From Actinoplanes ianthinogenes (lineage in GTDB: Bacteria; Actinomycetota; Actinomycetes; Mycobacteriales; Micromonosporaceae), in the NCBI RefSeq assembly GCF_018324205.1, contig NZ_AP023356.1, forward strand, positions 1 through 64,000: DNA of 64,000 nt. The letters are read 5' to 3'. Both the position numbers and the translations under genes were made by a program. Positions within the stretch are counted from its first letter, which is position 1. Each line of letters opens with the position of its first letter. Shown here piece by piece: positions 8,557-49,187 of this stretch. The notes under the pieces were generated by a model. That model saw only the letters and a list, made by a program, of their open reading frames with translations, did not search any database and was not told the origin of the DNA.

Positions 8557-9439
8557 AGTCCTTCAGCGAACGGTAGTCTCCGCCCCACTTCCAGCCGATC
8601 GCGGCGAACGCCCGCACCACGACCCCGTCCGGTTCGATCATGCCGGGACGGACGTCGCGACGGTCCAGGTAGGAGGTGGCCAGCTCGGGCAGCACCACCT
8701 TGCCGCGGTGGTAGGGGTTCTGGAACGGATTGACGTCGACGGCCAGCCCGTAGGAGTGCTGGGACCAGGCCGTACGCCCGCGCACCGGCCGGCAGGCATA
8801 AGCGTCGGTGCCGTTGCCGTCCCCGGTCGGCGGCGCGTTCAGCTCGGCGGCGCTGGTGATCCGCATCTGCTCGATCGGGTAGCCCGCGGTGAACAGCCGC
8901 TGGAACACCGTGACCAGGTCAGCCGCCGCCCGCTTGTTGACCAGCAGCTCGCCGGTGTGCGCCAGCCCGTCGAACCCGCGGAAGCCGACCGTGACATAAC
9001 GCAGGTCGGTCGCTTTCACCGGGCAGGCGGCCGTCCAGGATGACCGGGCCAGCACCTCGGCCGGCACCGCCTCGATCGTGGAGTGGAACCGCCCGTCGGC
9101 CGGTGCCGACAACACATCCGTCGTGACGATCGACCGCCGGCGCAGCTCGGGCGGGGTATCCCCGGCCGCCGCGAAGCCGTCGGCGCCGACCGGGAGCACC
9201 CGCTTGCCGAGCCACGCCGGCGCGGCGCTGGCATTCCCGATCCGCCCGGCCGCTGGGCTCGGGACCGCTGAGCTCACGGCCGGTGGGCTCGCGGCCGGTG
9301 GGCGGGTGCTGGCCGGCGCCGGCGGGGACGACGCGGATCGGGGTGGTGGGCCGGCGGAGCAGCCCGCGACGACGCCGCAGGCGAGCAGGGCGGTCAGCAG
9401 CCGCCGGACCCGCCCGGGCGTGATGATCTCGTTCGCCAT
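8528..9439 (-). CDS. Lipoprotein with M15 D-Ala-D-Ala carboxypeptidase-like domain (VanY-like)
   Basis: 303 aa. ATG 9439 gives a lipoprotein signal peptide (RVRRLLTALLACGVVAGC, lipobox Cys), then a Pro/Ser/Ala linker to about residue 60 and a C-terminal peptidase domain. Zinc-site motifs of M15: SQHSYGLAVDVNPFQNPY (SxHxxGxAxD with His and Asp) and WGGDYRSLKDFMHFS with the third ligand His. The family trims the terminal D-alanine of muropeptides, so the likely role is cell-wall maturation or turnover on the outer membrane face. An upstream in-frame ATG at 9547 runs back into the tandem repeats and is rejected. Confidence 0.88.
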   Translation of the reverse strand: MANEIITPGRVRRLLTALLACGVVAGCSAGPPPRSASSPPAPASTRPPAASPPAVSSAVPSPAAGRIGNASAAPAWLGKRVLPVGADGFAAAGDTPPELRRRSIVTTDVLSAPADGRFHSTIEAVPAEVLARSSWTAACPVKATDLRYVTVGFRGFDGLAHTGELLVNKRAAADLVTVFQRLFTAGYPIEQMRITSAAELNAPPTGDGNGTDAYACRPVRGRTAWSQHSYGLAVDVNPFQNPYHRGKVVLPELATSYLDRRDVRPGMIEPDGVVVRAFAAIGWKWGGDYRSLKDFMHFSATGG

Positions 9440-39738: not shown

Positions 39739-39757
39739 TTAGGTAAGCATTACCTTA
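39739..39757. promoter_or_regulatory. Iron box (IdeR/DmdR-type operator)
   Basis: TTAGGTAAGCATTACCTTA is a near-perfect palindrome close to the actinobacterial iron-box consensus (TTAGGTTAGGCTCACCTAA) and ends one base before the first candidate start codon. Fe(II)-loaded IdeR/DmdR would shut the siderophore operon when iron is plentiful. The rest of 39552-39738 shows no gene. Confidence 0.85.
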
Positions 39758-41239
39758 GTGGAGGCCTCGTTGGAGCGGTCCGATTCCCCGCATCTGTTTT
39801 CCGGGTCCACGCTGGACGGTTACACGTCCGGCGTGTGGCACGCGTCGGCGCTGCTCGCCGACCGGGTGAAGGCAGTGCGGCAGCCGTACTCCGGCGCAGG
39901 CGTCGCCGAGCTGCAGGAGCAGATCGACACCGTCGACCTCGACCGGCCCCTCGGTGACACCGGTGCGGCCTTGCACGAAGTCGCCCGGCTCTACCTGGAC
40001 AACGCCGTCTGGTTCCACGAGCCCACCTACGTCGCCCACCTCAACTGCCCGGTGGCCATCCCCGCGCTCAGCGCGGAGGTGCTGATCTCGGCGGTCAACT
40101 CCTCGGTGGACACCTGGGACCAGAGCACCGCGGGCACCCTCATCGAGCGCCGCCTGATCGACTGGACGGCCGGGCGGATCGGCTTCGGCCCGGGTGCCGA
40201 CGGCATCTTCACCAGCGGCGGCACCCAGTCCAACCTGCAGGCCCTGCTGCTGGCCCGCGAGGAGACCCTGGCCGGTCCGGCCGGGGACCGGGCCACCGCG
40301 ATCCCGAAGCTACGGATCTTCGCCACCACCGAGAGCCACTTCAGCGTCAGCAAGTCGGCCGGCATCCTCGGCCTGGCCGCCGACGCGGTGGTCGGTGTGG
40401 CCACCGACGGCACCGGCCGGATGGACCCGGAGGCGCTCGCCGCCGCCATCGACGACGTGCGACGCGACGGCGGGATCCCGATGGCCGTCGTCGCCACCGC
40501 CGGCACCACCGACCTGGGCCGCATCGACCCGGTCGACGCCATCGCGGGGATCTGCGAGAGCCGGGGCATCTGGTTCCACGTCGATGCCGCGTACGGCTGC
40601 GGGCTGCTCGTCTCGCGCCGCCGGAACCTGCTGGACGGCATCGAGCGGGCCGACTCGGTGACCGTCGACTTCCACAAGAGCTACTTCCAGCCGGTCAGTT
40701 CCAGCGCGATCGTGGTGCGCCGGGGCGAGACGATGCGCCGCATCGCGGTGCACGCCGACTACCTGAACCCGCGCACCGCCGTCGTGCCGAATCAGGTCGA
40801 CAAGAGCCTGCAGACCACCCGCCGCTTCGACGCGCTGAAGCTGTGGATGACGCTGCGGACCATGGGCGCCGAGCAGATCGGTGCCATGTTCGACGCTGTC
40901 ATCGACCGGGCGCACGAGGTCTACCTGGAGATCTGCGACGACCCGGACTTCGAGGCGGTGGCCGCGCCGACGCTGAGCACGGTCCTGTTCCGGTACAGGC
41001 CGGCCGGGACGACCGTCGCCGAGTGCGACGACCTGATGCCGCGGCTGCGCCAGCGGCTGTTCCACGGCGGCCGGGCGATCGTCGCCGGCACCACCATCGG
41101 CGGGCACTACTGGCTCAAGTTCACCCTGCTCAACCCGAACACCACCAGGGACGACCTGCGCGGCGTGCTGGACCTGATCCGCGGGATCGGCGCGGAGATG
41201 ACCGGCGAGCGCGACGAGGCCGCGGCGGTGATGGCCTGA
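39758..41239 (+). CDS. PLP-dependent decarboxylase (DesA-like, siderophore diamine synthesis)
   Basis: 493 aa group II decarboxylase. PLP features: ITSGGTQSNLQALLLARE, ring-stacking His in TESHFSVSKSAGI (H194), Asp in WFHVDAAYG (D276), Schiff-base Lys in VTVDFHKSYFQPVS (K307). It decarboxylates lysine, ornithine or 2,4-diaminobutyrate to the diamine backbone of a hydroxamate siderophore; lysine to cadaverine is likeliest given the DesB/DesD-like partners. Start uncertain: GTG 39758 touches the iron box, while TTG 39770 has GGAGG five bases before it and may be the real start. First gene of four; its stop overlaps the next start (TGATG). Confidence 0.9.
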   Translation: MEASLERSDSPHLFSGSTLDGYTSGVWHASALLADRVKAVRQPYSGAGVAELQEQIDTVDLDRPLGDTGAALHEVARLYLDNAVWFHEPTYVAHLNCPVAIPALSAEVLISAVNSSVDTWDQSTAGTLIERRLIDWTAGRIGFGPGADGIFTSGGTQSNLQALLLAREETLAGPAGDRATAIPKLRIFATTESHFSVSKSAGILGLAADAVVGVATDGTGRMDPEALAAAIDDVRRDGGIPMAVVATAGTTDLGRIDPVDAIAGICESRGIWFHVDAAYGCGLLVSRRRNLLDGIERADSVTVDFHKSYFQPVSSSAIVVRRGETMRRIAVHADYLNPRTAVVPNQVDKSLQTTRRFDALKLWMTLRTMGAEQIGAMFDAVIDRAHEVYLEICDDPDFEAVAAPTLSTVLFRYRPAGTTVAECDDLMPRLRQRLFHGGRAIVAGTTIGGHYWLKFTLLNPNTTRDDLRGVLDLIRGIGAEMTGERDEAAAVMA

Positions 41240-42519
41240 TGCGCACGTACGACTTCGCCGCGATCGGCGTCGGCCCGTTCAACCTGGGGCTGGCCGCCCT
41301 CACCGAGGACCTCACCGGCGTCGACGGGATCTTCCTGGAGCAGCGGGCCGGGTTCGACTGGCATCCCGGCCTGATGATCGACGGCGTGACGATCCAGGTG
41401 CCGTTCATGGCCGACCTGGTCACGATGGCCGATCCGACCTCGCGCTTCTCGTTCCTCAACTACCTCAAGCAGGTCGGTCGGCTCTATCCGTTCTACATCC
41501 GGGAGAGCTTCTACCCGCTGCGCGCCGAGTACAACGAGTACTGCAAGTGGGTGGCCGGGCAGCTGTCGTCGATCAGGTGGGACACCCGCGTCGACACCGT
41601 CACCCACGACGGCGAGGCCTACCTGGTGCACACGAACGGTGAGACGTTCCGGGCCCGCAAGCTGGTGCTAGGCATCGGCACCGCGCCGCGTGTCCCGGCT
41701 GCCGTGGACCAGGGGCCCTACCTGCACAGTGCCGACTACCTGCCCGGGAAGGCCGAGCTCCAGCGACTCGACTCGATCACGATCATCGGCAGCGGGCAGA
41801 GTGCCGCCGAGATCTACCTCGATCTCCTCAACGACATCGAGACGTACGGCTACCACCTGAGCTGGATCACCCGCTCGCCGCGGTTCTTCCCGATGGAGTA
41901 CACCAAGCTCACGCTGGAGATGACCTCGCCGGAGTACATCCGGTACCACCGGCGCCTGCCGCTGGAGACCCGCGACCGGCTCGGCCGGGAGCAGCGCAAT
42001 CTGTACAAGGGCATCAGCGGCGACCTGGTCGATGCCATCTACGACACCCTCTACGCCAAGAGCCTGGCCGGGCCGGTGTCCACCACGCTGCTCACCGGCA
42101 CCGCCCTGTCCGGCGTGATCTGGGACGGCGAGCGCTGGACGCTGGCGCTGGAGCACCAGGAGGAGGGCAGCTCGTTCACGGCCACCACCCGCGGACTCGT
42201 GCTGGCCACCGGTTACGCCCCACGGGTGCCGTCCTTCCTGGACCCGGTCCGTGATCGGATCAACTGGGACGCCCACGGCCGGTTCGACGTCGCCGTCGAC
42301 TACGCCGTCGACCGCCGGGGTGAGGAGATCTTCGTCCAGAACGCGGCCGAGCACACGCACAGCGTGACCGACCCCGACCTGGGCATGGGCGCCTACCGCA
42401 ACAGCGTGATCCTGCGGGGTATCACCGGGCGCGAGATCTACCCGGTCGAGGAGTCGATCGCCTTCCAGCAGTTCGGGGCCCCCACGGCCGACATCCCCAA
42501 GGCACTGGTGACATCGTGA
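41239..42519 (+). CDS. L-lysine/cadaverine N6-monooxygenase (IucD/DesB family)
   Basis: 426 aa. FAD motif AAIGVGPFNLGLAAL, the substrate-site signature DWHPGLMIDGVTIQVPFMADLVTMADPTSRFSFLNYL, NADPH motif ITIIGSGQSAAEIYLDLL and the C-terminal LATGYAPRVPSFL. It hydroxylates the terminal amine of lysine, cadaverine or ornithine; the upstream decarboxylase favours cadaverine. The ATG overlaps the previous stop by one base, and its own stop overlaps the following GTG (GTGA), so all products are made in fixed ratio. Confidence 0.93.
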   Translation: MRTYDFAAIGVGPFNLGLAALTEDLTGVDGIFLEQRAGFDWHPGLMIDGVTIQVPFMADLVTMADPTSRFSFLNYLKQVGRLYPFYIRESFYPLRAEYNEYCKWVAGQLSSIRWDTRVDTVTHDGEAYLVHTNGETFRARKLVLGIGTAPRVPAAVDQGPYLHSADYLPGKAELQRLDSITIIGSGQSAAEIYLDLLNDIETYGYHLSWITRSPRFFPMEYTKLTLEMTSPEYIRYHRRLPLETRDRLGREQRNLYKGISGDLVDAIYDTLYAKSLAGPVSTTLLTGTALSGVIWDGERWTLALEHQEEGSSFTATTRGLVLATGYAPRVPSFLDPVRDRINWDAHGRFDVAVDYAVDRRGEEIFVQNAAEHTHSVTDPDLGMGAYRNSVILRGITGREIYPVEESIAFQQFGAPTADIPKALVTS

Positions 42520-44720
42520 GACTCGTACCGCTGAACCTCGATCGTGATCTTGATCTTCTCGTCGCCTGGGTGACCCATCCCCGTTCGCACTACTGGGGTC
42601 TGCAGGGCGCCACCGTGGAGCGGGTGCGCGAGGAGTACCAGGGCTTCCTGGACAACCCGCACTACGACGTGTGGCTCGGGCTGGACGACGACGATGTCCC
42701 GCTGTTCCTCGCCGAGACCTACGACCCGGCGCACAGCGAGCTGGCTGCTCACTATGCCGTGCAGCCCGGTGACATCGGCATGCACGTGCTCGTCGCGCCG
42801 CCGACCCGCAAACGCTCCGGGGTGACCTCCGCGGTGATGCGGGCCGTCATGGACTTCTGCTTCGCCGATCCGCGGATCGAGCGGGTCGTCGTCGAGCCGG
42901 ACGTCCGCAACGACGCCATCCAGCGCAAGAACGCCGAGGTCGGGTTCGTGCCGGAACGCGACGTGCCGCTGCACGGCAAGACCGGCCGGCTCAGCTTCTG
43001 CACGCGCACGGCGTACGCGATGAGCGTCCCGCACCTGCGGCCGGAGGCCATCGCGTTCGCGCACCGGCGACTGATCGCGAAGGCCATCGCCGAGTTCAGC
43101 CACGAGCGCCTGATCTCGCCCCTGCCCGATCCTTCCCAGCAGGACAGGTATCGATTCGGGGAGAACACGTTCACCGCGAAGCGCTACCCGCTCGAGCACT
43201 GGGTGATCGACCCCGAGTCGCTGGACGGGCCGCTCGACGCGCTCGACTTCATCGCTCGCCTGCGCGAGACGCTCGGCATCCCGGAGAAGCTGCTCGGCAC
43301 GTACCTCGAGGAGATCTCCGCGACGCTGGCCGGCAGCGCCTGGAAGTATGCGCACCGCCGGGAGAGCGCCGAGGACCTCGTGCACGCGAGCTTCCAGACC
43401 ATCGAGGCGGCCATGACCGAGGGGCACCCCGGGTTCGTGGCGAACAACGGGCGCATCGGTTACGGGCTCGGCGATCATGAGGCATACACCCCGGAGTCCG
43501 GGCGGCCGGTCCGCTTGCGGTGGGTCGCCATTCGCAAGGACGAGAGCATCTTCGTGTACGCCGGGGACGAGCTCGACCACTACCGGGCCGAGCTGGGCGA
43601 CCTGCTGGACCGGTTCGAGCGGCAGCTCCGTGCCCACGGACTGGACCCGGCCGACTACCGCTACCTGCCGGTGCACCCGTGGCAGTGGGAGCACAAGGTC
43701 GCCGTCACGTTCGCACCCGACGTGGCCCGCAGGGCGATCGTCCCGCTCGACGCCGGACCTGATCGTTATCAGGCACAGCAGTCGATCCGGACGTTCTTCA
43801 ACCTGGACCGGCCGGAACGCCACTACGTCAAGACCGCGATCGCCGTGCAGAACATGGGCTTCCTGCGCGGGCTGTCGCCGAAGTACATGCGGGCCACCCC
43901 ACCGATCAACGACTGGGTCGCGCGGGTCGTGGAGGGTGACGAGGAGCTGCGCGCCTGCGGATTCGGCGTGCTGCGGGAGCTGGCGTCGATCGGGTACGTC
44001 GGCGACGCCTATCACCGGAGCGGGACGCCCAGTGCGTACACCAAGATGCTCGCCGCCCTGTGGCGGGAGAGCCCGCTCCCGCGCCTCGCCGACGGCGAGC
44101 GGCTCGCCACCATGGCCAGTCTGCTGCACCGCGACCGCGCCGGGAACTCGCTGGCCGCCGCCCTGATCCGCGAGTCCGGCGTGGCACCGGCGGCGTGGGT
44201 GGCGACCTACCTGCGCGCCTACCTGCGGCCGATCGTGCACTGCCTGCTCAAGCACGATCTGGCGTTCATGCCGCACGGCGAGAACCTGATCCTGGTGCTC
44301 GAGAACCACGTACCGGTGCGGGTGTTCATGAAGGACATCGGCGAGGAGGTGGCGGTCATGAACGACCAGCCGCTGCCGCCCGAGGTCGAGCGGATCCGCA
44401 TCGAGGTCAGCGACGAGATCAAGGAACTGGCGGTCTTCACCGACGTGTTCGACGGGTTCCTGCGGCACCTCGCCGGTATCCTCGACGCGGACGGGGTGCT
44501 CGGCGCCACCGAGTTCTGGGCGCTCGCCGGCGACTGCATCCGCGAGCACGCCAAGGACCACCCGTCCCTCGGCGGGCGGCTCGACCTGCTGCGGCCCACG
44601 TTCCGGCACTCCTGTCTGAACCGGCTCCAGCTGCGCAACACGCTGCAGATGGTGGACCTCACCGACCAGGCCAGCTCGCTGATCTTCGCGGGCGAGCTGG
44701 ACAACCCGGTCGCGGCATGA
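42516..44720 (+). CDS. GNAT acyltransferase fused to IucA/IucC siderophore synthetase (DesC-DesD fusion)
   Basis: 734 aa, GTG start. Residues 1-170 are an IucB/DesC-type GNAT domain: LDLLVAWVTHPRSHYWGL, VQPGDIGMHVLVAPP, VVVEPDVRNDAIQRKNAEVGFV. Residues about 180-734 are an NIS synthetase: YRFGENTFTAKRYPLEHWV, EGHPGFVANNGRIGYGLGDHEAY, YRYLPVHPWQWEHKV, TAIAVQNMGFLRGLSPKYM, HDLAFMPHGENLILVLENHVPVRVFMKDIGEEV and the C-terminal LRNTLQ. The GNAT domain would acylate the N-hydroxy-diamine (acetyl- or succinyl-CoA). The synthetase then activates carboxylates with ATP to join and perhaps cyclise units. In Streptomyces these are separate genes (desC, desD). Confidence 0.93.
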   Translation: MRLVPLNLDRDLDLLVAWVTHPRSHYWGLQGATVERVREEYQGFLDNPHYDVWLGLDDDDVPLFLAETYDPAHSELAAHYAVQPGDIGMHVLVAPPTRKRSGVTSAVMRAVMDFCFADPRIERVVVEPDVRNDAIQRKNAEVGFVPERDVPLHGKTGRLSFCTRTAYAMSVPHLRPEAIAFAHRRLIAKAIAEFSHERLISPLPDPSQQDRYRFGENTFTAKRYPLEHWVIDPESLDGPLDALDFIARLRETLGIPEKLLGTYLEEISATLAGSAWKYAHRRESAEDLVHASFQTIEAAMTEGHPGFVANNGRIGYGLGDHEAYTPESGRPVRLRWVAIRKDESIFVYAGDELDHYRAELGDLLDRFERQLRAHGLDPADYRYLPVHPWQWEHKVAVTFAPDVARRAIVPLDAGPDRYQAQQSIRTFFNLDRPERHYVKTAIAVQNMGFLRGLSPKYMRATPPINDWVARVVEGDEELRACGFGVLRELASIGYVGDAYHRSGTPSAYTKMLAALWRESPLPRLADGERLATMASLLHRDRAGNSLAAALIRESGVAPAAWVATYLRAYLRPIVHCLLKHDLAFMPHGENLILVLENHVPVRVFMKDIGEEVAVMNDQPLPPEVERIRIEVSDEIKELAVFTDVFDGFLRHLAGILDADGVLGATEFWALAGDCIREHAKDHPSLGGRLDLLRPTFRHSCLNRLQLRNTLQMVDLTDQASSLIFAGELDNPVAA

Positions 44721-47071
44721 GGGTCTACCGCGACGCCTACGGGATCCCGCACCTGCGCGCCGGCTCGGTCCTCGACCTCGCCTGGCTGCAGGGGCGGGTG
44801 ACCGCAACCGACCGGGGCCGGCAGATCACCGTCGAGCGGCTCCGCTCCGAGGGGCGTCTCGCCTCCGTCGCCGGGGCCGCCGAGGTGGGGTGGGACCGGT
44901 TCGCGCGACGGGTGCGGCTCGACGAGACGGCGCGGCGGTCATTCGACGGACTGGACGATGCGACCCGGCGGTGGTTGCGGGCGTACGCGGCGGGGGTCCG
45001 CGCCGGCGGCATCGAGTGGCAGCCGTGGTCGTCGCTCGGCGTGTTCCAGGTGCAGCACATTCTGTTCGGGACGTTCGGCAACAAGATGTGGCGGGCGCAC
45101 GTCGAGCGGACCCTGGGCCCGGACGCCGTCGCGTGGTTCGCCACCGAGGGGCCGGGCGGCTCCGGCAGCAACGCCTGGACGGTTCCGGGCGAGATCGCCG
45201 GCGACCCGCACCGGCTCCTCGAACTGCCCGGCGTCTACCAGCAGGTCCGGCTCGCCTGCCCGGCCTTCGACGTGGCCGGGCTGACCTTCCCGGGCGTGCC
45301 CGGGGTGCAGCACTTCGGCCACACCGGATCGGTGGCCTGGGCCGTCACCAACGCGATGGCCGATTACCAGGACCTCTACATCGAGGAACTGCGCGCGACC
45401 GGGGACGGGTTCGAGGCGCGCGGCGCGACCGGCTGGGAGCCGGTGGCCACCCGCCAGGAGACGATTGCCGTCCGCGACGAGCCCCCGGTCGTGGTCGACG
45501 TCCTGGAGACCGCGCGCGGGCCGGTCATCGATGGGAACCTGAGTCTTCGTACGCCGTCCTTGTCCACATGCGACCTGGGCTTCGGCGCCCTGTTGCCGCT
45601 GCTGCACGCGTCCACCGTCGACGATGTCGCCGACGCCCTGTCCCACTGGGTCGAACCGGTCAACAGTGTCCTCACCGCCGACAGCACCGGCCGCACCCTG
45701 CAGCTCACCGTCGGCCGGGTGCCGCAGCGCGACGAGCGCAACCGGATCGTGCCGGTGCCCGCCTGGGAGGCCCGCTACGCGTGGCGGCCGGGGTGGGCGC
45801 CGATGTTCCGTGCCGAGGTGACCACCGCCGTCAACGCCAACGACCGGCGGCCCGACACCGAGCCGTACGGCGTGGACTTCGCACCGCCCGCGCGCGCCCA
45901 CCGGATCCGTGAGCTGCTCGACTCTCGCGTGCCGCACGAGTCGATCCACATGGACACCACGCTTCCCGCCGGCTCCGCCGAGGCCGGGCGCCGGATGGCC
46001 GAGCGGTCGGCCGTCGCCCGCGAGTTGTGCGACCTGCCCGCGTTGGCGCCGCTCTTCTCGCCGTCCGGTCATGATCCGCTGTTCGCGCCGTGGATCGATC
46101 CCCGGGCGCGGATCGGGCTTGCGCTCGACGGGGTGCTCGCCGGGCTCGGCCTCGATCCGGAGGCCCTCGCCGCCGCGCCCGCGACGCCCGATTCTCTCTG
46201 GGGTGCGCGGCATCTGCTGCACCCGCTCCAGTTGCCCGGGCTGGACGCCGACGTGCCGGAGGTCCGGCTCGGTGGCTCGGCCGATTGCGTGCTCGCCACG
46301 TCCAGCATTCCCGGGGTCAGTGATCTGTGCTGGCGCGGGCCGGTCGCCCGCTATGTCTGGGACATCGCCGACCGGCGGCGCAGCCGGTGGGTCGTACCGT
46401 TCGGCGCGTCCGACGACCCCGCGTCGCCGCACTTCCTCGACCAGCTGCCGCTCTGGGCGCACGGGACGCTCGTCCCGCTGGTCACCGACTGGGAGGAACT
46501 CATGGAGGAGCCCTTGATCGCCTTCGCGGAGAAGCTGCCCGGCCTGGGCGAGCTGACCATGGTTCCGCTCGATCCGGCCGCGCACGCCCCGGTCGTGCAC
46601 GGCTGGGTGACCAAGGAGCGCAACCGGTTCTGGGGCATGGGCGGGCACTCGGTCGCCGACGTCGAGGAGATCTACGGGTACGTCGACAGCCTGGAGAGCC
46701 ACCACGCCTACCTGCTGCTGCTCGACGACGGCCCGATCGGGATCTTCCAGACGTACGAGCCGTCACTCGACCCGGTCGGCGAGTGCTACGACGTGCAGCC
46801 CGGTGACTTCGGCTCGCACCTTCTGATCGACGCCGAGGGCCACGATCTGCCGCACCTGACCAGCGCCGTCTTCCCGGCCCTGCTCCGGCACCTCTTCGCG
46901 GCGGACCCGGCCCGCGCACGCATCATCGCCGAACCGGACGTCCGCAACGACCGCATGATCAGCCGCCTCCGGCGGGAGGGTTTCACCCTGGGCCCGGAGA
47001 TCGACCTGGGCCACAAGCGGGCCCAGCTGGCCTTCCTCGACCGGGCACGGTTCGAGGCGTCCGAGAGGTAG
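44717..47071 (+). CDS. Penicillin-acylase-family Ntn hydrolase fused to a C-terminal GNAT domain
   Basis: 784 aa; ATG overlaps the previous stop (ATGA). Residues 1 to about 600 match penicillin/AHL acylases: RDAYGIPHLRAGS, spacer, then SGSNAWTVPGEIAGDPHRLLELPGVYQQV, where Ser151 would be the self-processing N-terminal nucleophile. FPGVPGVQHFGHTGSVAWAVTNAMADYQDLYIEEL and VTTAVNANDRRP follow. Residues about 615-784 are a second IucB-like GNAT: VVHGWVTKERNRFWGMGG, YDVQPGDFGSHLLIDA, IIAEPDVRNDRMISRLRREGF. No signal peptide, so cytoplasmic, unlike periplasmic PvdQ. Likely roles: removing or exchanging an acyl group on the siderophore or its precursor, or cutting imported siderophore; the GNAT may supply the other acyl chain. 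Confidence 0.88.
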   Translation: MRVYRDAYGIPHLRAGSVLDLAWLQGRVTATDRGRQITVERLRSEGRLASVAGAAEVGWDRFARRVRLDETARRSFDGLDDATRRWLRAYAAGVRAGGIEWQPWSSLGVFQVQHILFGTFGNKMWRAHVERTLGPDAVAWFATEGPGGSGSNAWTVPGEIAGDPHRLLELPGVYQQVRLACPAFDVAGLTFPGVPGVQHFGHTGSVAWAVTNAMADYQDLYIEELRATGDGFEARGATGWEPVATRQETIAVRDEPPVVVDVLETARGPVIDGNLSLRTPSLSTCDLGFGALLPLLHASTVDDVADALSHWVEPVNSVLTADSTGRTLQLTVGRVPQRDERNRIVPVPAWEARYAWRPGWAPMFRAEVTTAVNANDRRPDTEPYGVDFAPPARAHRIRELLDSRVPHESIHMDTTLPAGSAEAGRRMAERSAVARELCDLPALAPLFSPSGHDPLFAPWIDPRARIGLALDGVLAGLGLDPEALAAAPATPDSLWGARHLLHPLQLPGLDADVPEVRLGGSADCVLATSSIPGVSDLCWRGPVARYVWDIADRRRSRWVVPFGASDDPASPHFLDQLPLWAHGTLVPLVTDWEELMEEPLIAFAEKLPGLGELTMVPLDPAAHAPVVHGWVTKERNRFWGMGGHSVADVEEIYGYVDSLESHHAYLLLLDDGPIGIFQTYEPSLDPVGECYDVQPGDFGSHLLIDAEGHDLPHLTSAVFPALLRHLFAADPARARIIAEPDVRNDRMISRLRREGFTLGPEIDLGHKRAQLAFLDRARFEASER

Positions 47072-47109: not shown

Positions 47110-47952
47110 ATGGGGGATCGGGTGCTCGTCACCGGCGCGGCCGGGCTGGTCGGCCGGGCAGTTCTGGATCTGCTCGCCGCCCGCGGGAGGCCGGTCACCG
47201 CGCTGGTGCTGGACCCGGTCACCGACCTGCCCGCCGACCGGGTCGTGACCGGCGACGCCCGGGATCCGCAGGTGGTCGCGGAGGCGCTGCGCGACGTGGA
47301 CGCGGTGATCCACCTGGCCGCCATCCCGCATCCGGACGCCGACCCGGCCGAGGAGGTGTTCGGACGCAACAGCCTGGCCACCTTCACCGTGCTCGACCAC
47401 GCCGGGCGGGCCGGGATCCGGCGGGCGGCGATCGCCAGCAGCTACGCGATCTGCGGGCTGCCGTTCGCGCGGCGGCCGCTGCGGATGCCGTACCTGCCGA
47501 TCGACGCGCGGCTGCCGCTGCAGATCACCGATCCGTACGCGTTGAGCAAGCGTGCCGACGAGGCCACCGCCGAGATGGTGGCGCTGCGATACGGGACGGA
47601 CGTGGTGGCGCTGCGGCTGCCGTTCATCGGCGACCCGGCCGGGCGGCTGCGCGAGACCGCCGAGCGGTTCGCCGCCGACCCGGGCAGCGGCGCCCCGGAC
47701 GTGTGGAGCTACCTGGACACCCGCGACGCCGCCCGGGCGCTCGTGGCCGCCCTGGAGCCGGCCTCGCCGGGCTGTCACGTGCTCTACGTCGCGGCGCCGC
47801 GGATCCTCGCCCCCCAGCCGACCGAGTGGCTCCTGGACCGCTTCCATCCCGGCGTGCCCCGGCCCCACTTCCCCGGCCGGACCGTCCCGATCGACCTGGA
47901 ACCCGCCCGTGAGCTGCTCGGCTTCACCGCCGAGTTCGTGGCGGACCGATGA
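47110..47952 (+). CDS. NAD-dependent epimerase/dehydratase (SDR, possibly uronate dehydrogenase-like)
   Basis: 280 aa extended SDR. Cofactor motif VLVTGAAGLVGRAVLDLL, VIHLAAIPHPDA, catalytic Ser in AIASSYAICGLP and Tyr/Lys in DPYALSKRADEA. Lacks membrane or secretion signals. The ATGA overlap with a ManD-like enolase-superfamily gene suggests a sugar-acid pathway: oxidation of an aldose or uronate, then dehydration of the aldonate. Own promoter at 47073-47101. Substrate unproven. Confidence 0.85.
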   Translation: MGDRVLVTGAAGLVGRAVLDLLAARGRPVTALVLDPVTDLPADRVVTGDARDPQVVAEALRDVDAVIHLAAIPHPDADPAEEVFGRNSLATFTVLDHAGRAGIRRAAIASSYAICGLPFARRPLRMPYLPIDARLPLQITDPYALSKRADEATAEMVALRYGTDVVALRLPFIGDPAGRLRETAERFAADPGSGAPDVWSYLDTRDAARALVAALEPASPGCHVLYVAAPRILAPQPTEWLLDRFHPGVPRPHFPGRTVPIDLEPARELLGFTAEFVADR

Positions 47953-49187
47953 CGCCCTGGACGCACCGCGACAACCTGCGGATCACCGGGGTCCGGGTGA
48001 TCGTCACCGCGCCCGAGGGCGTCAACCTCGTGGTGGTCCGGATCGACACCACCGAGCCCGGGCTGTACGGCCTCGGCTGCGCCACCTTCCACCAGCGGTT
48101 CGCGGCGGTGGCCGGCGCCATCGAGCAGCACGTGGCGCCGCTGCTGGCCGGGCGGCACCCGGCGGACATCACCGATATCACCCGGACGCTGCACTTCTCG
48201 TCGTACTGGCGCGGTGGCCCGGTGCTCAACAGCGCGCTCTCCGGTGTGGACATGGCGCTCTGGGACATCGCCGGCAAACGCGCCGGCCTGCCGGTGTACG
48301 AGCTGCTCGGCGGCCGGTTGCGCGGCGCGGTCCCGGTGTACCTGCACGCCGAGGGCGCGACCGTGGAGGACACGCTGGACCACGCGGAACGGCTGATCGC
48401 CGCCGGGTACCGTCATGTCCGGCTCCAGACGGGTGGTCCGGGGCTCGGCACCTACGGCGCGCCGGGCACGCCCGGGGCCTATCCGGACGCGCCCTACCCG
48501 GACGGCTGGAGCGTCCACCACTATCTCCGGCAGACGCCGCGCCTGTTCGCCGCGGCCCGCGACCGCCTCGGCGACGACGTCGAACTGCTGCACGACGTGC
48601 ACAGCCGCCTCACCCCTAAACAGGCGGTGACGCTGGCCCGGGCGCTGGAGCCGTACCGGTTGTTCTTCCTGGAGGACGTGGTCGCGCCGGAACACTACGA
48701 CCGTCTCCCGGAGGTCCGCGCCGCCTCCCCGGTGCCGATCGCGGCAGGCGAGCTGACCGTCTCGGTCGCCGAGGCCGCCCGCCTGGTCACCACCGGCGGC
48801 GTCGACCTGCTCCGCTGCCACATCTCCGCGATCGGCGGCCTCACCCCGGCCCGCAAACTGGCCGACCTGTGCGAGCTCTCCGCCGTCCAGACCGCCTGGC
48901 ACGCCCCGGCCGACGTCTCCCCGATCGGCGCCGCCGCGAACCTCGCCCTCGACCTGACCAGCCCGGCCTTCGGCATCCAGGAGGGCCACGTCTACCCGGA
49001 ACCGGTCCACGAGATCTTCCCCGGCACTCCGGTCATCGCGAAGGGCTACGCCACCCCGCCGGAGGGCGTCGGGTGGGGCGTCGGCCTGGACGAGAAACTT
49101 GCGGAGCGCTTCCCCCCGGTCTTCGGCGTCCACGAACGCTGGACCAGCACGGTCCGCCGGCCCGACGGCGCCGTCGAAGCCCCCTGA
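47949..49187 (+). CDS. Enolase-superfamily sugar-acid dehydratase (ManD/RspA-like)
   Basis: 412 aa, the length of mannonate dehydratases. Metal ligands in order: Asp in ELLHDVHSRLTP, Glu in FFLEDVVAPEH, Glu in IAAGELTVSV. His in HDVHSR and in QTAWHAPADVSPIG are the ManD-subgroup acid/base positions. NSALSGVDMALWDIAGKRAGLPVYELLGG is the capping/family signature. It removes water from D-mannonate, D-gluconate or a similar acid to give a 2-keto-3-deoxy acid. Co-translated with the SDR before it. A dispersed-motif copy follows the stop. Confidence 0.9.
   Translation: MTPWTHRDNLRITGVRVIVTAPEGVNLVVVRIDTTEPGLYGLGCATFHQRFAAVAGAIEQHVAPLLAGRHPADITDITRTLHFSSYWRGGPVLNSALSGVDMALWDIAGKRAGLPVYELLGGRLRGAVPVYLHAEGATVEDTLDHAERLIAAGYRHVRLQTGGPGLGTYGAPGTPGAYPDAPYPDGWSVHHYLRQTPRLFAAARDRLGDDVELLHDVHSRLTPKQAVTLARALEPYRLFFLEDVVAPEHYDRLPEVRAASPVPIAAGELTVSVAEAARLVTTGGVDLLRCHISAIGGLTPARKLADLCELSAVQTAWHAPADVSPIGAAANLALDLTSPAFGIQEGHVYPEPVHEIFPGTPVIAKGYATPPEGVGWGVGLDEKLAERFPPVFGVHERWTSTVRRPDGAVEAP

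Follow-up and report, generated by a model that had tools for sequence, protein, structure and literature searches.

The desGH gene and its product

The analysed window comprises the first 64,000 nucleotides of contig NZ_AP023356.1 of Actinoplanes ianthinogenes. It contains one gene, desGH, that encodes a penicillin-acylase-type hydrolase and a siderophore-type acyltransferase in a single frame. The gene is real, well formed and correctly read, with the coordinates and frame given by the first-pass annotation, which was made from the sequence without database searches; both its pathway and its fusion have already been published. The desJGH genes of Streptomyces coelicolor include desG, which belongs to the penicillin-amidase family, and desH, which encodes a DesC-like acyltransferase (PMC12161575, 2025, PLoS Biology). 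The features of desGH are as follows.

44717–47071, forward strand: fused desGH gene, a single intact frame of 784 residues plus stop, with no internal stop
44717–46516, forward strand: DesG domain (residues 1 to about 600), N-terminal nucleophile (Ntn) acylase of the penicillin-amidase type, assigned by PF01804, invariant columns and a predicted-structure match
46532–47068, forward strand: DesH domain (residues about 606–784), hydroxamate-type GNAT acyltransferase, assigned by PF13523; the closest solved relative is the GNAT of DfoC

In the Pfam search, Penicil_amidase (PF01804) matched the product with an E-value of 3.7e-113, the best stretch covering residues 2–407 and a second stretch being present besides. 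Acetyltransf_8 (PF13523) matched the same frame at residues 619–764 with an E-value of 5.9e-43. The C-terminal siderophore GNAT proposed earlier is therefore present; it carries the EPDVRND motif, and its top solved relative, the GNAT of DfoC, was matched with an E-value of 9e-29. The PF01804 match begins at residue 2 and so leaves no space for a signal peptide, in agreement with the first-pass annotation. The protein begins directly in its catalytic domain and is therefore presumably cytoplasmic.

An alignment of 36 fused proteins was used for an AlphaFold2 model of the protein (mean predicted local distance difference test score 87.5). The SNAW motif begins at Ser151; Ser151, Asn152, His165 and Asn375 are all invariant in the alignment. 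Residues 145–148, located immediately ahead of Ser151, are poorly ordered or flexible in the model, and residue 151 aligns with the position at which the mature β-chain starts (its residue 1) in 4hsr, in PvdQ and in the penicillin acylases. Together with PF01804, the motif and this β-chain-start alignment bear out the assignment of Ser151 as the nucleophile and of the acylase type.

As judged by VIA-align, the predicted acylase structure matches class III cephalosporin acylase (4hsr) with a Z-score of 32 over 444 residues and D-succinylase (7eby) with a Z-score of 31.6 over 576 residues. PvdQ (Z 24) and, lower still, penicillin G acylase (Z about 21) rank behind the glutaryl and succinyl acylases (Z 31.6–32.5). 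This ranking suits a dicarboxylyl group such as succinyl as the substrate, shared fold being no proof of it. PvdQ, offered as the analogue in the first-pass annotation, is thus a poor one, and PvdQ-like removal of a fatty acyl chain is unsupported, given the missing signal peptide and the lower place of PvdQ in the ranking. By sequence, the closest solved acylase is PDB 35sz, which shares ∼50% identity with the DesG proteins of some Streptomyces and Micromonospora over the part read; this entry did not turn up in the fold search.

The desferrioxamine-type operon and its iron box

desGH is the final gene of an operon that starts with a decarboxylase gene, followed by genes for an N-hydroxylase and a GNAT–IucA/IucC fusion.

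39739–39757, forward strand: predicted IdeR/DmdR1-type iron box TTAGGTAAGCATTACCTTA, immediately before the operon; it agrees with TTAGGTTAGGCTAACCTAA at 15 of 19 positions
39758–41239, forward strand: DesA-type pyridoxal-phosphate decarboxylase, 493 residues as listed (PF00282), the true start maybe slightly downstream
41239–42519, forward strand: DesB-type N-hydroxylase, 426 residues (PF13434)
42516–44720, forward strand: DesC–DesD fusion, an N-terminal GNAT plus an IucA/IucC synthetase of the type independent of nonribosomal peptide synthetase (NIS), 734 residues (PF13523, PF04183, PF06276)
44717–44720, forward strand: ATGA start/stop overlap that couples desCD to desGH, read in 44705–44730

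The ATGA join to decarboxylase, monooxygenase and synthetase genes was already recognised in the first-pass annotation, and the overlap at 44717 and the DesA-, DesB- and DesC–DesD-type genes upstream agree with it. The start of the synthetase gene also overlaps the stop of the monooxygenase gene, in the form GTGA. Since the synthetase (42516–44720) is itself a GNAT–IucA/IucC fusion, the operon holds two fusions.

The closest solved relative of the DesA-type protein is 5o5c, a putative decarboxylase of desferrioxamine biosynthesis (E = 6e-140). Those of the DesB-type protein are 6xbb (E = 6e-161), which we take to be DesB of S. sviceus, and 5o8p, a monooxygenase of desferrioxamine biosynthesis. 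The DesC–DesD fusion is closest to DfoC (5o7o, matched over nearly the whole length, E = 1.5e-203) and DesD. All four functions of the desferrioxamine (desABCD) cluster are present together, with desferrioxamine enzymes among the top solved matches.

The site at 39739–39757 is the top iron-box match anywhere in the window. Near the desA start, iron boxes with 15–18 of 19 matches were found in 12 relatives, and iron boxes also precede stand-alone desGH genes in Streptomyces, Kribbella, Arthrobacter and Glycomyces. As expected of DesG, which occurs either together with desABCD or at a separate iron-regulated locus, the window gene is part of a desAB(CD) operon that an iron box precedes. The domains, the operon, the iron box, the family-level similarity, the catalytic residues and the fold are established by this analysis.

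The operon is followed by a sugar-epimerase-like gene (47110–47952) and a mannonate-dehydratase-like gene (47949–49187); a sugar epimerase gene, SCO4051, also adjoins desH in S. coelicolor (PMC12161575), perhaps by chance. Elsewhere in the source genome, IucA/IucC is matched again in two or more open frames (G000:C1, about 9530837–9532869), which may form a second locus for an NIS siderophore. The penicillin amidase family is also matched at L116 (G000:C1:7214192–7216567, reverse strand), which is too dissimilar for the DesG search to find.

Fused, split and DesD-less forms in relatives

Seven other Actinoplanes genomes carry desGH as one open frame (70–94% identity), which rules out a sequencing error or an assembly fusion; the nearest named relative is A. 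italicus, with 88%. The first-pass annotation had allowed that close relatives might have the halves as two genes, with a sequence error here. The former holds for A. palleronii, for A. lutulentus and for Actinoplanes sp. DH11, whose two genes are properly delimited and overlap at the stop codon of the acylase and the start codon of the GNAT; the latter does not, the fusion being natural. Fused desGH proteins of Streptomyces other than S. coelicolor are 43–49% identical and fall in the same gene tree.

The genome-neighbourhood search proposed in the first-pass annotation found the fusion across many genera, including Actinoplanes, Micromonospora, Dactylosporangium, Streptomyces, Kribbella, Glycomyces and Nonomuraea. 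The 80 named loci divide into about 62 with the fusion, 12 with split genes and 6 with no adjacent GNAT (one locus, L081, was scored differently in another count); because the search favours full-length matches, these counts are not a frequency. On a quick DesG tree built with no outgroup, at least six changes between the fused and split forms are required. The fusion is shown to be widespread, and its interconversion with the split form among close relatives provides natural pairs for testing the effect of fusion on the ratio of desferrioxamine B (DFOB) to desferrioxamine E (DFOE). DFOB is an iron-overload drug, and the enzymes that set this ratio are therefore of practical interest.

In 68 Actinoplanes genomes, DesD was found in 25 and DesG in 38. 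DesG is present in 24 of the 25 genomes with DesD. In the 25th (G228; L113, about 8616–9351), desG is reduced to a short remnant that lies after desD and ahead of a desH that looks intact; either a natural deletion or a fault of assembly could account for this. Co-occurrence with the N-hydroxylase is uninformative, PF13434 matches being present in 68 of 68 genomes.

Fourteen of the genomes carry DesG and no DesD. In 13 of them, DesG matches the window protein at 65–69% over the whole acylase domain. Nine distinct sequences of this type, eight from DesD-less genomes and one from Paractinoplanes pyxinae, form one supported clade within the Actinoplanes DesG group.

L106–L109, L111, L112, L114, L115, L064, L077: stand-alone DesG homologues of DesD-less Actinoplanes and Paractinoplanes

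At the DesD-less loci read, there is no adjacent GNAT and no iron box (best 9–11 of 19 matches, same as shuffles); the acylase genes share a conserved neighbourhood near zwf and often have a DUF1905/OmdA gene behind them. The catalytic residues are intact, and the median pairwise ratio of nonsynonymous to synonymous substitution (dN/dS, by a simple counting method) is about 0.22, versus 0.28 in operonic DesG. The DesD-less proteins thus appear to be under purifying selection. We see an even chance that this lineage, in at least 13 species, has left siderophore biosynthesis, in which case it would be a repurposed acylase; it is a separate small puzzle. The 14th genome (G130) has a separate, more distant DesG branch, with no adjacent GNAT and a different neighbourhood; its locus (L091) and that of Actinoplanes sp. 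NBRC 103695 (L110) are apparently one and the same.

Proposed role, alternatives and known systems

In S. coelicolor, inactivation of desG lowered DFOB about 1000-fold and inactivation of desH lowered it 16-fold; in both mutants DFOE went up, and complementation restored DFOB (PMC12161575). From this genetic and metabolomic evidence it was proposed that DesG de-succinylates N-hydroxy-N-succinylcadaverine and that DesH acetylates the product; the need of DesG for acetyl-capped DFOB in vivo has been published for S. coelicolor only (PMC12161575). This is the mechanism that the first-pass annotation had arrived at in its first inference, acyl removal and acyl addition on a hydroxamate precursor. 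Its claim that no described siderophore pathway has this fusion does not stand, since desGH fusions were noted in S. atratus and Micrococcus, where the fusion was suggested to exploit a high local concentration of the intermediate (PMC12161575), and the fusion is common in relatives.

We consider it probable, at roughly 0.82, that the window protein is a fused DesG–DesH that swaps succinyl for acetyl on a desferrioxamine building block and so makes the acetyl cap for DFOB. Autoproteolysis in the cytoplasm would expose Ser151. The DesC domain would make N-hydroxy-N-succinylcadaverine, from which the DesG domain would strip the succinyl group; the freed N-hydroxycadaverine would then be handed to the GNAT domain of the same protein and acetylated to N-hydroxy-N-acetylcadaverine. 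With the acetyl end-cap supplied in this way, DesD would make linear DFOB beside cyclic DFOE. The fusion probably shortens the hand-over of the intermediate. In this mechanism we infer what exactly the substrate is, that this strain uses acetyl as its acyl group, and that the intermediate is channelled.

Several points weigh against the succinyl-for-acetyl swap. We found no in vitro de-succinylation assay for the DesG family, the step having been deduced from mutants. The diamine could be cadaverine, putrescine or a mixture, enzyme similarity being what points to N-hydroxycadaverine, and DesH might add a longer or an aromatic acyl group. Orthology to S. coelicolor DesG and DesH is suggested by the family, the domain pair, the operon and a gene tree with other Streptomyces. 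Furthermore, DesG persists in 14 genomes that lack DesD and may therefore act outside the desferrioxamine pathway.

The swap could also take place late, on the completed linear trimer (desferrioxamine G1 type) and not on the monomer: DesG would remove the terminal succinyl of the trimer, and DesH would produce DFOB by acetylating the hydroxylamine thus exposed. Cephalosporin acylases accept leaving groups as bulky as 7-aminocephalosporanic acid. This order of events, which we regard as improbable, predicts the same mutant profile as that published, DFOB lost and DFOE raised (PMC12161575). Alternatively, the acylase may serve to diversify the caps, giving phenylacetyl or fatty-acyl ends in place of acetyl; it could transfer these groups itself or free the amine for a DesH that draws on other acyl-CoAs. 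According to the paper citing it, DesG was first proposed as the maker of aryl-desferrioxamines (Cruz-Morales 2017); desferrioxamines with aryl or fatty-acyl caps occur among the producers, and strains without desGH yielded uncapped forms only (PMC12161575). However, no arylated desferrioxamine was seen in S. coelicolor, although its DFOB requires desG (PMC12161575), and penicillin G acylase is further away in fold than are the succinyl and glutaryl acylases, which leaves diversification quite improbable.

Hydrolysis of an imported ferri-siderophore to release iron, the second inference of the first-pass annotation, is highly improbable. A hydrolase that is cytoplasmic and encoded behind an iron box could act in this way, and DesG without DesD in 14 Actinoplanes genomes would fit such a role. 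However, the published inactivation affects biosynthesis (PMC12161575), and the window gene closes a biosynthetic operon, is fused to an acyltransferase and belongs to a family that accompanies DesD in 24 of 25 genomes, the other having a remnant. The DesD-less genes examined have neither iron box nor GNAT.

Among known systems, PvdQ resembles the DesG domain in its Ntn acylase fold, at a weaker structural match (Z 24), and in taking part in the maturation of a siderophore. PvdQ is a periplasmic enzyme with a fatty-acyl substrate and acts on a product of nonribosomal peptide synthetase. Different from such an exported acylase, the window protein has no room for a signal peptide and is encoded in an NIS operon. 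Class III cephalosporin acylase (4hsr) and D-succinylase (7eby), named for glutaryl or succinyl removal, have the same Ntn acylase fold and nucleophile position as the DesG domain, with 26–35% identity in the structural alignment; they have no GNAT fusion and belong to unrelated pathways. Like the window protein at 42516–44720, DfoC (5o7o) has a GNAT fused to an NIS synthetase, and its GNAT is the top solved relative of DesH; different from desGH, it has no acylase domain. By description, desGH of S. atratus and Micrococcus CH3/CH7 is the same two-gene fusion in desferrioxamine producers of other genera (PMC12161575). DesG and DesH of S. coelicolor (SCO4049 and SCO4050) are, like the window protein, a penicillin-amidase-type acylase followed by a DesC-like GNAT, iron-controlled and linked to desferrioxamine (PMC12161575). 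Their genes are separate and lie at a locus apart from desABCD, whereas those in the window are fused and belong to the desAB(CD) operon. The window gene extends to Actinoplanes the model published for DesG and DesH.
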